This document shows, piece by piece, positions 24,382-31,449 of a stretch of 64,000 nt of DNA. Numbering within the stretch: position 1 is the stretch's first letter; each line of letters opens with the position of its first letter. Made by a program: the position numbers and the translations under genes. The stretch is taken from the NCBI RefSeq assembly GCF_000011905.1, contig NC_002936.3, forward strand, positions 558,001 to 622,000. Reading direction: 5' to 3'. Origin of the DNA: Dehalococcoides mccartyi 195 (GTDB lineage: Bacteria > Chloroflexota > Dehalococcoidia > Dehalococcoidales > Dehalococcoidaceae). The notes beneath the pieces were generated by a model. That model was not told the DNA's origin. It did no database searches and saw only the letters and a program-made list of their open reading frames with translations.

Positions 24382-24409
24382 TTGACAGTAGCTATGTTTC
24401 GTGTAGAAT
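24382..24409 (+). promoter_or_regulatory. Promoter of the kamA operon
   Basis: A perfect TTGACA (24382-24387), a 16-base spacer and TAGAAT (24404-24409) predict a start near 24416. That start falls inside the 30-bp palindrome that follows. Confidence 0.8.
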
Positions 24410-24410
24410 A

Positions 24411-24440
24411 TTACTCACAATTATACGTAATTGTGAGTAA
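24411..24440 (+). promoter_or_regulatory. Perfect 13-bp inverted repeat, operator of kamA
   Basis: TTACTCACAATTA (24411-24423) and TAATTGTGAGTAA (24428-24440) are exact reverse complements around a four-base centre. The palindrome begins two bases after the -10 and covers the predicted transcription start, the usual place for a repressor site. It has no T-run, so it is not a terminator. The regulator is not identified; no regulator gene is adjacent except the Fur-type one 2.5 kb downstream. Confidence 0.75.
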
Positions 24441-24475
24441 ACGCCATAAATTCTTAAGGAGGCTTCAGGCCTAAC

Positions 24476-25795
24476 GTGACCACTACCGAAGAAAATAAAA
24501 ACACACAATCAGATGACCCTCTCGGCGCAGGTGCAGTCGAAACTTATGGCAAGGTAGACGATGAGCCTCCCAGTAGGCTTGGCCAAACAAAAAGATTTAG
24601 ACTTAAATATTTCCCCAAAGTAAGTGACCAGAACTGGAATGACTGGCACTGGCAGTTTAAAAACCGTGTTACTTCTGTAACAGAAATAGCAAGGTTTTTT
24701 CATTTGTCTGCAGAAGAATACAGGGATATGGAGGCCGTTTCTGCGGTTTTCCCCCTTTCCGCCACCCCTTATTACCTCAGTCTGGTAGATTTTGACAATG
24801 TAAATGACCCGGTAAAGTGTCAGCTTATGCCGGATACAGCTGAACTTAATTTTGATACCCGCTGCTGTTCTGACCCTTTGGAAGAGGCTCATAGTTCGGT
24901 AGTGCCTGGGCTGGTACACCGTTATCCTGACAGGGTGGTCATGGTGCTGACTGATATATGCCCGGTACTGTGCCGCCACTGCACCCGTAAAAGGGAATGG
25001 AAAAACGGCGGTTGGGTGCATACCCAGGCAGAGATAGATGCCATGCTGGCATATATACGCCAGCATCAGGTTATCCGGGACGTAATTATCTCCGGCGGTG
25101 ACCCCTTAACCCTGTCTACACCCCGCTTGGAAAGTGTTCTTTCGGCTCTGCGTTCAATACCCCATGTGGAAATTATCCGTATAGGTACCCGCTATCCTGT
25201 GGTCTTACCCCAGCGGATAGATGATGAACTATGCAATATGCTTTCCAAGTACGGTCCTATCTGGCTTAATACCCATTATAACCACCCTAATGAAATTACC
25301 GAAGAATCCCGTCAGGCCTGTGACCGTCTGGTCAGGGCGGGCGTACCTGTAAATAACCAGTCGGTACTTTTAAAAGGCATAAATGACAGTGTGTCTGTGC
25401 AGAAATCCCTTTGCCACAAGCTTTTAATGAGCAAAGTGCGCCCTTACTACCTTTTCCAGTGTGACAATGTGCAGGGTACAGAGCATTTCCATACCCCCAT
25501 TGAAACCGGGGTGGGGATTATTGAGGGCTTGCGCGGTTATACCTCCGGTTTGGCTGTGCCGAATTACGTTATAGACTTACCGGGTGGCGGCGGCAAAATA
25601 ACTATTCAGCCGGACTACGTGCTGGATAAACAGGCTGACGAATATATAATCCGTAATTACAAGGGTGATATAATCCGTTTTAAAAATCCGGGTGACCCCA
25701 AAGTTTACAGCAATACCGGCCGGACAGATTTACTTAATAATGCCGCTAAAATAAAGAGAGAAACAGATGCAGATAGGGCTGTCATACGATCTTAA
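24476..25795 (+). CDS. kamA: Lysine 2,3-aminomutase family radical SAM enzyme
   Basis: This is a 439-residue radical SAM/PLP aminomutase. CPVLCRHC gives C162, C166 and C169; DLPGGGGK contains the PLP lysine K374. The two acidic residues that hold the substrate side-chain amine in lysine 2,3-aminomutase appear to be kept (D330 in FQCDN, D367 in VIDLP); glutamate aminomutases differ there, so lysine to beta-lysine is the likely reaction. The start is GTG at 24476 with AAGGAGG 13 bases upstream. It overlaps the ATP-grasp gene by 29 bases. No ablB acetyltransferase follows, unlike osmolyte pathways. Confidence 0.88.
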   Translation: MTTTEENKNTQSDDPLGAGAVETYGKVDDEPPSRLGQTKRFRLKYFPKVSDQNWNDWHWQFKNRVTSVTEIARFFHLSAEEYRDMEAVSAVFPLSATPYYLSLVDFDNVNDPVKCQLMPDTAELNFDTRCCSDPLEEAHSSVVPGLVHRYPDRVVMVLTDICPVLCRHCTRKREWKNGGWVHTQAEIDAMLAYIRQHQVIRDVIISGGDPLTLSTPRLESVLSALRSIPHVEIIRIGTRYPVVLPQRIDDELCNMLSKYGPIWLNTHYNHPNEITEESRQACDRLVRAGVPVNNQSVLLKGINDSVSVQKSLCHKLLMSKVRPYYLFQCDNVQGTEHFHTPIETGVGIIEGLRGYTSGLAVPNYVIDLPGGGGKITIQPDYVLDKQADEYIIRNYKGDIIRFKNPGDPKVYSNTGRTDLLNNAAKIKRETDADRAVIRS

Positions 25796-26783
25796 ACAGG
25801 CGTTAAATCCGGTTAGCGGCGGCCCTGATGATGCGCTGGAAGAATATGACTCACCGGAGACGGTTGAAGCTATCACTAATGCTTTAACCCAGGCCGGGCA
25901 TACGGTTTACCGCTTGGGTGGGGGAAAAGAGTTTTTACGCAGGGTACAGGAACAAAAACTTGACCTGGTTTTCAATATTGCGGAGGGTTTGGGCAATTAC
26001 CGCAGCCGTGAGGCTCAAATTCCCGGTATTTTAGAGATGTTAGATATACCGTACACCGGCTCAGATCCGCAGACACTGGCGGTCTGTCTGGATAAACCCC
26101 TGACTAAGAAACTGGTAGCTGATGCCGGTATAAAAACTGCCCGGTGGCAGTTAGTCACCAGCTGCGAAGAGCTTTCGGCTATAGACTGGTCAGGGTTCCC
26201 CTTGCCGGCTTTTCTTAAGCCTGCCTGTGAGGGTTCTAGCAAGGGTGTCAGGTTTGCTTCACGCGCCGGAAGTGCCAAAGAAATAGTAAGCATGGCGGCA
26301 GAGCTGCTTACTGCCTATGAGCAGCCTGTTTTGATAGAAGAATTTATAAGCGGCGAAGAGATTACGGTAGGGGTTATCGGTAATATACAGCCCAAAGTTT
26401 TGGGTATCATGCGGGTTGTCCCCAAAACCAAAACTGATTATTTTGTCTACTCTGTAGAGGTGAAACGCAACTGGCGGCAGATGGTGGAGTATGAGGTACC
26501 GGCGGCTTTGCCTGCTGAGACTTTATCCCGCATTGAAAAGGCTACGCTGGATGCGTATAAGGTGCTGGGCTGCCGTGACCTGTGCCGTATGGATTTCAGG
26601 GTCAGCCCTGACGGCATACCTTATTTTCTGGAAGTAAACCCTTTGCCCGGTCTGAACCCTGTCAGCGGAGATTTGCCGATTATGGCATCTAAACTGGGTA
26701 TCAGTCATGCTGAGTTGGTGTTAAAAATACTTGACACTGCTCTGGCCCGCCACAGTCTGACTGCGGCAAACTGCCTGCCTTAG
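25767..26783 (+). CDS. ATP-grasp ligase, D-Ala-D-Ala ligase-like
   Basis: This 338-residue ATP-grasp protein would form an amide bond between a carboxylate and an amine. FLKPACEGSSKGV is the nucleotide loop, VLIEEFISGEEITVGVIG the grasp strand, and CRMDFRVS plus YFLEVNPLPGLNP the metal-binding residues. It differs from true Ddl: the usual HG..GEDG block is FNIAEGLGNYRSREAQIPG. Organisms of this type are reported to lack peptidoglycan, so cell-wall Ddl activity is doubtful. It overlaps kamA by 29 bases, so a substrate made by KamA is likely. A terminator follows. Confidence 0.8.
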   Translation: MQIGLSYDLKQALNPVSGGPDDALEEYDSPETVEAITNALTQAGHTVYRLGGGKEFLRRVQEQKLDLVFNIAEGLGNYRSREAQIPGILEMLDIPYTGSDPQTLAVCLDKPLTKKLVADAGIKTARWQLVTSCEELSAIDWSGFPLPAFLKPACEGSSKGVRFASRAGSAKEIVSMAAELLTAYEQPVLIEEFISGEEITVGVIGNIQPKVLGIMRVVPKTKTDYFVYSVEVKRNWRQMVEYEVPAALPAETLSRIEKATLDAYKVLGCRDLCRMDFRVSPDGIPYFLEVNPLPGLNPVSGDLPIMASKLGISHAELVLKILDTALARHSLTAANCLP

Positions 26784-26802: not shown

Positions 26803-26829
26803 AAAGGCCTCCTCCGGGAGGCTTTTTAT
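26803..26829 (+). terminator. Intrinsic terminator after the kamA operon
   Basis: GCCTCC (26807-26812) pairs with GGAGGC (26817-26822), flanked by AAA and followed by TTTTTATTTT. It separates the kamA pair from the metal-uptake operon. Confidence 0.85.
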
Positions 26830-26857
26830 TTTAAGGGATAATTAACCCCCGTGATTC

Positions 26858-26916: not shown

Positions 26917-27348
26917 GTGCCAACTATTCAGAGCCGTATCCGCCAGAATAAATACAAGATTACGCCCCAGCGGCAGGCTGTTTTAAAGGTATTGTCTGCT
27001 GCTACCCAGCCGCTAAGCCCGTCAGAAGTGCATGAACTGGTGCAGGCGGCTAAACCTTCAACCGGTATGGCAACTGTCTACCGTTCTCTCCAGCTTTTGT
27101 CCGAACTGGGGCTTGTTTGCGAGCTGCATACCGCCGGTAATTGCCACCGCTATCTGCTTAGGCGTATTGATTCCCATCACCACCATTTGATTTGTTCCGG
27201 TTGCGGTCAGGTTATTCACGTGGAGGGGTGCGGGCTTAAAGAGATTACGGAAAATTTGTCCCGGCAGACCGGGTTTGCTATAGATGCCCATTTGCTGGAG
27301 TTTATCGGGCGTTGCCGGAATTGTCAGAAAGAGGCGGGGAAAGTATGA
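26917..27348 (+). CDS. zur: Fur-family metal-responsive repressor, probably Zur
   Basis: This is a 143-residue Fur-family regulator. KITPQRQAVLKVL and GMATVYRSLQLLSELGLV form the winged helix; SHHHHLICSGCG carries the regulatory metal histidines and the first zinc Cys pair, and CRNC near the end is the second. The start is GTG at 26917 with AGAAGG upstream. It overlaps a ZnuABC-like transporter by four bases, so it probably senses zinc, but manganese or iron cannot be excluded by sequence. It lacks a preceding sensor of another type and would repress its own operon. Confidence 0.82.
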   Translation: MPTIQSRIRQNKYKITPQRQAVLKVLSAATQPLSPSEVHELVQAAKPSTGMATVYRSLQLLSELGLVCELHTAGNCHRYLLRRIDSHHHHLICSGCGQVIHVEGCGLKEITENLSRQTGFAIDAHLLEFIGRCRNCQKEAGKV

Positions 27349-28217
27349 AATTAAGGACATTATTTTTGAGTTTGGCTTTAGGCGTTACCCTGCTTAGCAG
27401 TTTACTGCTGGCGGGTTGTCAGGAAGATTCATCTTCTGCTGCCAAGCTCAAAATTGCAGTCAGTATAGTGCCCCTGAAAGAATTTACCCAGCAAATTGCC
27501 GGGGATAAGGCTGAAGTAATTCTTATGGTTCCTCCCGGGGCGGAGCCGCATACCTACCAGCCGCTTCCTTCCCAAATGGTAGATATAAGCCAGGCAGATA
27601 TGTACGTGAAGCTGGGCTCTGATTTTGGTTTTGAGCAAACCTGGATTTCAAAAATATTGGCTTTAAACCACTCTATGCTGATGGTAGATAGTTCGGTAAA
27701 TATTACACTGGAAAGCAGTTCGGAAGGTGACGGGGCAGACCCGCATATCTGGCTTTCACCGCGTAATGCTATCCAGATGGTCAAAAATATCACTACGGGG
27801 CTGATGAGCCTGGACCCGGAAAACAAGAGCTATTATGTAGCCAACCGGGATGCTTATTTAGCAAAGCTTGAGCAGTTGGATAATGAAATAACCCTGGCTC
27901 TCAGCCACCTGCATAACCGTACCTTTCTGGTTTTTCATCCTGCCTGGGCTTATTTTGCCAGAGACTATAATCTGAAAGAACTTTCCATTGAAATAGAAGG
28001 CAAAGAACCCACCCCCCAGCAGATGATAGAAATAATAGATTTGGCTATACAAAATAATATCAGCATTGTCTTTGCTTCCCCCCAATTTTCCAGCCGGAGT
28101 GCAGAGTCAATTGCCTCTGAAATAGGCGGGCAGGTGATAATGATAGACCCGCTGGCCCAAGATTACATAAAGAATATGGAATTTGTTTACAAGCAAATGC
28201 AAGAGGTTATGAGCTGA
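27345..28217 (+). CDS. znuA: Metal ABC transporter substrate-binding lipoprotein (ZnuA-like)
   Basis: This is a 290-residue solute-binding protein of the cluster 9 family for zinc or manganese. The signal peptide ends in the lipobox LLAGC (C25). Metal-binding His residues are seen in GAEPHTYQPLPSQ, DPHIWLSPRN and VFHPAWAYFA, and a late Asp in IDPLAQDY completes the site. It lacks the long His-rich loop of many zinc-specific members, its acidic stretch being ESSSEGDGADPH. The ATG at 27345 overlaps the regulator stop as ATGA; an upstream in-frame start at 27312 would add residues before the signal peptide. Confidence 0.88.
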   Translation: MKLRTLFLSLALGVTLLSSLLLAGCQEDSSSAAKLKIAVSIVPLKEFTQQIAGDKAEVILMVPPGAEPHTYQPLPSQMVDISQADMYVKLGSDFGFEQTWISKILALNHSMLMVDSSVNITLESSSEGDGADPHIWLSPRNAIQMVKNITTGLMSLDPENKSYYVANRDAYLAKLEQLDNEITLALSHLHNRTFLVFHPAWAYFARDYNLKELSIEIEGKEPTPQQMIEIIDLAIQNNISIVFASPQFSSRSAESIASEIGGQVIMIDPLAQDYIKNMEFVYKQMQEVMS

Positions 28218-28219
28218 AA

Positions 28220-28984
28220 ATGTCTGACACGCCAGCCCTGGTGTTTAGGGGAGTTAGTGCCGGTTTTGACGGCCTTACAGTACTGGAAGATATTACTTTT
28301 TCCCAGCCTGCAGGACGGATGCTGGGGATTATAGGCCCGAATGGCGGGGGAAAAACTACCCTCCTAAAGCTGATTTTGGGTCTTATTCAGCCTGACTGCG
28401 GCAGTATCAAGGTTTTGGGTAAAAGCCCCGAAGATGCCCGGCCAGAGATTGGCTATGTTTCCCAATATCACCTTTTTGACCGTGACTTTCCCATAAGTGT
28501 TTTGGAAGTGGTGCTGATGGGCAGGTATGCCAAAAGGGGTTTAGCCCGCCGCTACTCCAGTGGGGATGTGGCCTTGGCTAAGGAGTATCTGGATAAAGTG
28601 GGTATGCTGCCGTTTGCTCACAGACAGATTGGCCAGCTTTCAGGCGGTCAGCAAAAGAGGGTATTTATTGCGCGGGCGTTGGTTAATCAGCCGAAACTGC
28701 TTATCCTGGATGAACCGACTGCCGGGGTAGATGCCGCCATGCAAACCGGGCTGTATGAACTTTTGGAAACATTAAAAAAAGAGATGACCATTATTATGGT
28801 TACCCATGATATCAGTGCGGTAGCAGTATGTATAGATGATATAGCCTGTTTAAACAAGCATTTGTCGTATCACCATGCCGAGGAAGGGCTGACCGCAGAA
28901 GCTTTGTCTGAAACCTATAACTGCCCAATCCAGCTTATTGCGCACGGGCAGGTGCCCCACCGGGTGCTGAAGGAACACGTATGA
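28220..28984 (+). CDS. znuC: Metal ABC transporter ATP-binding protein (ZnuC-like)
   Basis: This 254-residue ATPase drives the ZnuABC-like importer. [14 protein letters not shown] is Walker [16 protein letters not shown] the signature, [12 protein letters not shown] Walker B, and MVTHDI the switch His. Its start is two bases after the znuA stop and its end overlaps the permease gene by four bases. The C-terminal ~35 residues ([21 protein letters not shown]) contain two His, as in metal-specific members. Confidence 0.9.
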
Positions 28985-29802
28985 TAGAGGCTTTGGGGTA
29001 TGGTTTTATCCAGAATGCTATTTGGGCTGGTCTGCTGGCGGCCATAGGCTGCGGGATTATTGGCAGTTATGTAGTAGTAAAAAAACTGGTATCTATAAGC
29101 GGCGGTATTGCCCATGCTTCATTCGGGGGAATAGGGTTGGGATATCTGCTGGGTATCAGCCCTGTGCTTGGGGCATTGGTATTCAGTCTGCTGGCCGCGG
29201 CCGGCATGGGTGCCATTACCCGCCGGGGACGTATAAGTGAAGATACGGTTATCGGTATGCTCTGGTCTTTGGGTATGGCTCTGGGTGTTATTTTTATAGG
29301 GCTGACACCCGGTTATGCCCCGGACTTATTCAGTTATCTTTTCGGCAATATTCTGACAGTGCCGTCTTCAGATTTGCTGCTTATGCTGGTGCTGGATGCC
29401 CTGATAATAGGGGTGGTCTGGCTTTTTTATAAAGAGTTTCTGGGTATATCTTTTGACGAAGAGTTTTGCCGTGTCAGCGGTATGCCTACCGGCCTTTTAT
29501 ACATAATAATGCTGGGGCTTATAGCTTTGACAGTAGTGATGCTGATACGGGTAGTGGGCATAATACTGGTGATAGCTTTGCTGACTATACCGGCAGCGGT
29601 TGCCCGCCGTTTTACTGATAACCTTTTTAAAATGATGCTGCTTTCAATTGGATTTGGTATGGTCTTCTGTTTGGGCGGTTTGTGGCTTTCATATGTGCTG
29701 GACCTGGCTTCGGGGGCTACTATCATACTCTTTAGTGCGGCTGTATTCCTTTTGGTTTGGGCTTTTAAAAACAAAAAGAAGCAAGAGCCGGTCAGAGACT
29801 AA
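28981..29802 (+). CDS. znuB: Metal ABC transporter permease (ZnuB-like)
   Basis: This is a 273-residue permease with about eight hydrophobic segments. [30 protein letters not shown] is the family signature near the N-terminus and [21 protein letters not shown] the loop that contacts the ATPase. It ends the zur-znuACB operon with no clear terminator; the next gene is convergent after 49 bases. Confidence 0.9.
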
Positions 29803-30318: not shown

Positions 30319-31449
30319 TTATCTGCTTAAGAAACGCGGCGGGGCCTGATGGGCGGGGGGAGCCGGTTTCCGGATGGAAGGCTGAGCGGAGCGGTAGCGC
30401 ATAAACGAGGGCACTTCCAGTTCTTCCTGGGTCTTGCTGCGCAGACCTTTCATCATACGGGTCATTTCTTTTTCATGGTTATTGGAGAGCATGCTCTCTT
30501 TGGTGGCAAAGCCGGTGGCTATCAGGGTTATCTGTACTTCCTTACCCATGCGGGGGTCAGTGCTTACACCAAAGATAATATTGGCCTCAGGGTCAACCGC
30601 CTGGCGGATAACATCAGCCGCGGAGTTTACTTCCATAAGGGACAGGTCTTCACCGCCGCAGACGTTATAAATAACACCCTTAGCCCCGTCCACCGCAATA
30701 TCCAGCAGGGGGCTGGCCAGGGCGGCTCTGGCGGCATCGGAAGCCCGGTTTTGTCCGGCACCTTTGCCTATAGACATCCAGGCGGGACCGGCATCTTTCA
30801 TGACGGCTTTTACATCTGCAAAGTCCAGGTTGATGATACCCGGCACGGTGATAACCTCGGCAATAGCTTTGACGCCGTTGCACAGAACTTCGTCAGCCAG
30901 TTTAAAAGCCCCGTCAACCCCTGTTTTCTGGTCAACCATGTCCAGCAGGCGGTCATTGGGGATAATTATAAGCGTATCCACGCTGTCTACTATATTATTT
31001 ATGCCCTCTTCGGCGGTTTGCATACGGTGAGCGCCCTCAAAGCAGAAAGGCTTGGTGCATACTGCAATGGTCAGGGCACCTGATTCCTTGGCTATTTTGG
31101 CAACCACCGGGGCTGAGCCTGTGCCTGTGCCGCCACCCATACCGGCGGTTACAAAAACCATATCAGCGCCTATTACGTTTTCCTTGAGCTCACTCATGCT
31201 TTCTTCGGCAGCAGCTTTGCCCATGGTGTGGTTACCGCCGGCACCCAACCCGCGGGTGCAGCGTTCGCCAATCTGGATTCGGGTAGCTGCTTCGGTAATA
31301 GCCAGATGCTGGGCATCTGTATTTACGGCTATAAACTCTACCCCCTGGATATTATCCCTGACCATACGGGTTACAGCGTTGCTGCCTGCGCCGCCGCACC
31401 CGATAACTTTAATCTTTGCGCCACTGGGTACATATACTTTCTTTGACAT
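30319..31449 (-). CDS. ftsZ: Cell division GTPase FtsZ
   Basis: This is a 376-residue FtsZ, the tubulin-like GTPase that forms the division ring. [17 protein letters not shown] opens the fold, [15 protein letters not shown] is the GTP signature, NDRLL and [11 protein letters not shown] lie in the T7 region. The C-terminal tail is short and basic with Pro ([16 protein letters not shown]) and includes the conserved peptide-like PSFMRYR, the usual FtsA docking site. It follows ftsA by 32 bases on the same strand. GGAT lies upstream of the ATG. Confidence 0.97.

Follow-up and report, generated by a model that had tools for sequence, protein, structure and literature searches.

The window, a stretch of 64,000 nucleotides from the Dehalococcoides mccartyi 195 chromosome (positions 558001-622000 of a closed genome of 1,469,720 bases), carries two overlapping genes on the forward strand. 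The first, kamA (24476-25795), starts with GTG and encodes a 439-aa protein of the radical-SAM lysine 2,3-aminomutase family. The second, ligA (25767-26783), starts with ATG and encodes a 338-aa putative carboxylate-amine ligase of the ATP-grasp type, with a Ddl fold and an altered substrate pocket. An earlier sequence-only reading of this DNA had given these boundaries and an overlap of 29 bases (25767-25795, forward strand), and both are exact. The overlap recurs at precisely this length in 16 other loci of relatives, which suggests translational coupling of kamA and ligA.

Upstream lies a sigma-70-like promoter, TTGACA-N16-TAGAAT (24382-24409, forward strand), with 11 of 12 consensus bases, and the -35/-10 region is recognizable 5' of kamA in two sister Dehalococcoides genomes and in Dehalogenimonas-type genomes. 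Two bases past the -10 box begins a perfect inverted repeat, TTACTCACAATTA-TACG-TAATTGTGAGTAA (24411-24440), with 13-base arms around a 4-base center, which overlaps the expected transcription start. Zero such repeats are expected by chance; this one is unique in the window and in the genome, and no second copy of its 24-base core was found in the genome with up to three mismatches. The pair had been described as operator-controlled, and the palindrome is indeed real, unique, and a candidate operator of kamA-ligA. However, the two sister Dehalococcoides genomes retain only the outer half-sites, imperfectly, leaving a partly symmetrical palindrome, and no regulator was found, so that operator control is plausible only. 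A ribosome-binding site, AAGGAGG, can be read at 24456-24462 (forward strand). Past ligA, an intrinsic terminator (26803-26835, forward strand) consists of a 10-pair stem (26803-26826) followed by a T-rich tail, and the transcription unit is therefore probably limited to the two genes. Beyond it, at 26917-29802, a gene for a Fur-family regulator precedes genes for a zinc uptake protein of the ZnuA type, for an ABC ATPase, and for a membrane component.

Residues and families of KamA and LigA

KamA passes the KamA subfamily model TIGR00238 (344 bits; cut-off, 199.2) and matches the solved Clostridium lysine 2,3-aminomutase, 2a5h, with an E value of 1.9e-127. Its D330, D367, and K374, singled out earlier as marks of lysine and pyridoxal phosphate (PLP) binding, align with Asp293, Asp330, and the PLP lysine Lys337 of 2a5h. 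Equivalents of Arg134 and Arg116 are kept as well, together with the FeS cysteines of the CxxxCxxC motif (C162, C166, and C169). We take the roles of these numbered residues to be those given in the literature on 2a5h and glutamate aminomutase. The positions of Asp293, Asp330, Lys337, Arg134, and the FeS cysteines are identical in 64 of 64 LigA-adjacent KamA relatives. The window protein thus shares with Clostridium AblA/KamA the sequence family, the radical-SAM cysteines, the PLP lysine, and the lysine-specific Asp pair. Unlike AblA, it stays under the AblA equivalog cut-off (TIGR03820, 474.9 bits against 525.4), aligns with the LAM C-terminal domain over positions 1 to 60 of 127 only, and has an ATP-grasp ligase rather than AblB as its partner. 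It also falls below the EpmB equivalog (TIGR03821, 254 bits against 369.3). The divergence from the strict AblA model could mean that the substrate is glutamate, arginine, or another amino acid, but we consider this highly improbable: the Asp pair that holds the lysine side-chain amine is invariant, and the protein falls 187 to 203 bits short of the models for glutamate and arginine aminomutases. The residues make a strong case that KamA converts L-lysine to free beta-lysine and is not of the glutamate type, as the sequence-only reading had proposed.

LigA matches PF07478 (Dala_Dala_lig_C) with 123 bits, and its predicted structure (pLDDT, 94) finds Ddl enzymes as its best PDB matches, with a TM score of about 0.78. 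It retains equivalents of the ATP/Mg residues Lys97, Lys144, Arg255, Asp257, Glu270, and Asn272 of E. coli DdlB, in the numbering of that enzyme, and shares an equivalent of Ser150. In contrast to this conserved core, the substrate pocket is not that of Ddl. Arg234 stands at the Tyr216 position and Glu73 at the His63 position, and residue comparison confirms the earlier remark that the N-terminal block differs from that of true Ddl. Glu73, Arg81, and Glu82 are invariant in 82 of 82 LigA proteins, where Ddl has His, Glu, and Asp. The Tyr216 position is mostly Arg or Trp among LigA proteins. In LigB, a second Ddl-like ligase, 25% identical, that is encoded beside LigA in relatives, it is Trp in 55 of 56. 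The His63 position is Glu in all LigA and in 55 of 56 LigB proteins, and the Ser150 position is Ala in 49 of the 56 LigB. Judged by these residues, LigA and LigB are ligases whose substrate site has changed and become more charged, and the LigA site would fit a diamino acid, beta-lysine being one. Ddl-like ligases of the bacilysin and pheganomycin type join substrates other than D-Ala. LigA would resemble them in this, although they are not known to be linked to KamA.

The Pfam domain and the fold would also be expected of an ordinary D-Ala-D-Ala ligase left over from a peptidoglycan pathway. We rejected this role, which had already been argued against, as barely credible: LigA is under every NCBIfam Ddl cut-off (the best, NF002378, gives 193 bits against 243), Tyr216 and His63 are replaced, and the genome holds just one Mur-ligase-like gene. 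LigA is its only strong-scoring Ddl-like protein in a PF07478 search; the remaining matches sit in long proteins that we read as biotin carboxylase and carbamoyl-phosphate synthase. This supports the view, given in the sequence-only reading, that usual peptidoglycan synthesis is not encoded here, and a host lacking that pathway is a further difference from Ddl. The window does contain an ftsZ-like gene, at 30319-31449.

A four-gene cassette and its reduction in Dehalococcoides

A LigA search limited to one genome per species retrieved 80 loci, 79 of them scorable for KamA. Of these 79, 63 encode KamA on the LigA strand at a distance of at most 2.6 kb, and in 50 of the 63 the distance is at most 450 bases; several of the LigA loci without KamA stop at a contig edge. 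The pair is therefore conserved in relatives, as had been predicted, and well beyond them. The usual unit comprises KamA, LigA, LigB, and a GNAT acetyltransferase of about 160 aa. Its order is KamA-LigA-LigB-GNAT in 37 loci and LigA-LigB-GNAT-KamA in 9, with further permutations elsewhere. Since membership is kept while the order is permuted, the genes appear to be functionally linked. The bacterial hosts belong to the Chloroflexota, Planctomycetota, Acidobacteria/Aminicenantes, Ignavibacteria, Bacteroidetes, Omnitrophota, Thermodesulfobacteriota, and Gammaproteobacteria, and the archaeal hosts to the Bathyarchaeota, Nitrososphaerota, and Thermoplasmatota, so that the cassette spans at least 10 phyla and both prokaryotic domains. 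KamA, LigA, and LigB distances correlate with r values of 0.89 to 0.93 across 56 loci, although vertical descent alone would also produce a correlation. Not every LigA relative has a KamA nearby (L081 from Nitrosotalea, L056, and L079 are examples without one), and the ligase family is thus not always dependent on beta-lysine. We considered whether the cassette GNAT is a form of AblB and rejected this, as the similarity is that of GNAT proteins in general.

Several other genes recur around the cassette. Just 5' of kamA, many Dehalococcoidia encode a small winged-helix regulator in divergent orientation (L036:4101-4430 and 12 other loci); it is a candidate cassette regulator and is absent from the matching place in the window. 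On the 3' side of the cassette, often close behind the GNAT gene, is the gene for a 580-aa protein that has a histone-deacetylase-type domain (L025:8578-10317 and five more loci of Dehalococcoidia). A planctomycete has an ornithine/DAP-decarboxylase-like gene after its cassette (L063:9630-11084).

In the sister genus, which we take to be Dehalogenimonas, KamA-LigA-LigB is present in 8 of 8 genomes, and GNAT adjoins the cassette in 6 of 6 loci read. Dehalococcoides has only KamA-LigA, in 3 of 3 genomes. In the window, KamA is directly coupled to LigA, with neither LigB nor GNAT alongside, and neither cassette gene was found elsewhere in this genome; the two sister Dehalococcoides genomes likewise lack LigB and have no GNAT beside the pair. 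In a quick tree, the window KamA nests within the clade of Dehalococcoidia cassette proteins (support, 99), next to the KamA of complete cassettes, which makes loss of LigB and GNAT the simplest reading. The sequence-only reading saw a stand-alone kamA/ATP-grasp pair. The pair is widely conserved, but from its sequence relationships what lies in the window is a reduced two-gene remnant of the KamA-LigA-LigB-GNAT cassette, with an acetyltransferase in its relatives.

Other beta-lysine genes in the genome

No ablB lies beside kamA, so the absence noted earlier is true of the locus, which is not an ablA-ablB operon. It is not true of the genome, which encodes a 741-aa AblA-AblB fusion 370 kb away (L003:6727-8952; genome positions of about 212.7-215.0 kb). 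The fusion passes the equivalog cut-offs of both AblA (757.6 bits against 525.4) and AblB (344.6 against 205.1). It is common to all three Dehalococcoides, is absent from the sister genus, and groups in the tree with the Clostridium enzyme, apart from the Dehalococcoidia cassette KamA. Its presence makes N-acetyl-beta-lysine a separate predicted product. On lysine fermentation the genome tells little: the lysine 5,6-aminomutase model PF09043 has no match in it, but has none in any control genome either.

Beta-lysine may have a further use in translation. An operon at genome positions of about 797.1-798.6 kb (L118:4614-6111) encodes EF-P and EpmA, both over their model cut-offs, in genes listed as overlapping by about 35 bases. 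The modifiable lysine of this EF-P, Lys31, sits in a PGKG loop, which we match to the Lys34 loop of the E. coli protein. A second EF-P in the genome (L156) has KHT instead. Among 31 related genomes, 17 have both EpmA and the cassette, 4 the cassette only, 10 neither, and none EpmA only; the Fisher p value of 2e-5 is too small because of shared ancestry. A cassette KamA match is present in 16 of the 17 EpmA genomes, and the 17th (G019), which is fragmented, has both cassette ligases on a contig that starts inside LigA. The EpmA-linked EF-P carries PGKG in 17 of 17 genomes, and EpmA-free genomes have only EF-Ps without it. In the flanks examined of cassette loci from other phyla, neither EpmA nor EF-P was seen. 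The genes epmA and epmB (yjeA and yjeK) occur together in 28% of genomes, and yjeA occurs alone in two organisms only (PMC2821294). The same paper describes Planctomyces limnophilus as having yjeA but lacking yjeK. This genome has EpmA and a PGKG EF-P, as in the EpmA/EpmB system, but the score of the window KamA does not make it an EpmB, and its gene lies apart from efp; indeed, neither KamA protein of the genome passes the EpmB model. In the sister genus, there is no second strong KamA match, which leaves the cassette KamA as the only obvious source of beta-lysine for EpmA there.

Predicted product and competing explanations

As a whole, the observations are best explained by a reduced cassette whose free beta-lysine is used by LigA and probably by EpmA for EF-P, a reading we regard as somewhat probable. 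KamA would make free beta-lysine from L-lysine by SAM, FeS, and PLP chemistry. LigA, for which the fold and the ATP/Mg residues are shown, would use ATP to turn a carboxylate into an activated acyl phosphate and then join it to an amine. Because kamA and ligA overlap and are co-inherited, beta-lysine is most likely one of the LigA substrates, a proposal drawn from this co-inheritance only. Where the cassette is complete, a second amide bond would come from LigB and acetylation of a primary amine from GNAT, and the product would be a small peptide of N-acylated beta-lysine; the two partners fit a small amide-bonded beta-lysine product. Since Dehalococcoides has neither, its predicted product is a dipeptide or an amide of beta-lysine. 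The same pool of KamA-made beta-lysine would probably serve EpmA for attachment to Lys31 of EF-P. Counting against this explanation, the substrates of LigA, LigB, and GNAT are all predicted, KamA is under the AblA cut-off, and common descent of the 31 genomes confounds the EpmA association. In addition, E. coli EF-P bears (R)-beta-lysine, whereas classical lysine aminomutases yield the (S) form (PMC2821294, PMC6544042).

The broader proposal is that of a pathway of bacteria and archaea, independent of the ribosome and of nonribosomal peptide synthetases (NRPS), in which two Ddl-fold ligases build an N-acetylated beta-lysine di- or tripeptide, with beta-lysine shared with EF-P and a stripped-down form in Dehalococcoides. 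We put it forward tentatively. If true, a compact four-gene cassette found in at least 10 phyla of both prokaryotic domains, and retained in minimal version by organohalide respirers, makes an uncharacterized metabolite. It would also provide a candidate supply of beta-lysine for EF-P in the Dehalococcoidales, where EpmA and EF-P are present but neither of the two KamA proteins in this genome passes the EpmB model.

Other explanations divide the roles of the two proteins differently. KamA could mainly be the missing EpmB of this lineage, supplying EpmA, with LigA having drifted to an unrelated amino-acid ligation and being retained by operon inertia. This would account for the EF-P/EpmA operon with its modifiable lysine, for the finding that EpmA never occurs without the cassette in the 31 genomes, and for the retention of KamA in Dehalococcoides when LigB and GNAT were dropped. 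The partial LAM C-terminal domain points the same way, as EpmB is without that domain (PMC2821294). We nevertheless think it rather unlikely, given that the EpmB cut-off is missed widely and that LigA has lost neither the ATP/Mg residues needed for catalysis nor the conserved overlap of 29 bases. The cassette is also found in four EpmA-free relatives and in archaea, which have aIF5A in place of EF-P, and in Dehalococcoides the second KamA, the AblA-AblB fusion, could supply EpmA. Protein-directed use of beta-lysine had been named in the sequence-only reading as something that would speak against its ligase idea. The EpmA/EF-P operon does exist, and KamA can therefore not be read as dedicated to the ligase, but the occurrence of the cassette in archaea and in EpmA-free relatives leaves the ligase idea unrefuted.

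LigA itself might have a protein or another macromolecule as its target, much like RimK or EpmA, attaching beta-lysine to it or an amino acid to a beta-lysine derivative on it. One protein target for beta-lysine, EF-P, is already predicted in this genome, and other ATP-grasp ligases modify proteins (PMC4431377). However, the neighbors of the cassette in the various phyla do not include a conserved acceptor protein, and Ddl enzymes, which account for all of the closest solved matches of LigA, use free amino acids. We consider such a target unlikely.

The reading that we prefer, a small amide-bonded beta-lysine product, resembles a known type of pathway. Our literature search found no published account of the KamA-LigA-LigB-GNAT cassette among the papers it covered; an earlier mention is possible, most likely in the 2009 amidoligase survey of Iyer and others. 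The N-acetylglutaminylglutamine amide (NAGGN) pathway pairs an ATP-grasp amino-acid ligase with a GNAT protein and makes a small acetylated peptide, as proposed here. Unlike it, the cassette has no asparagine-synthase-like gene and uses KamA and two Ddl-like ligases.
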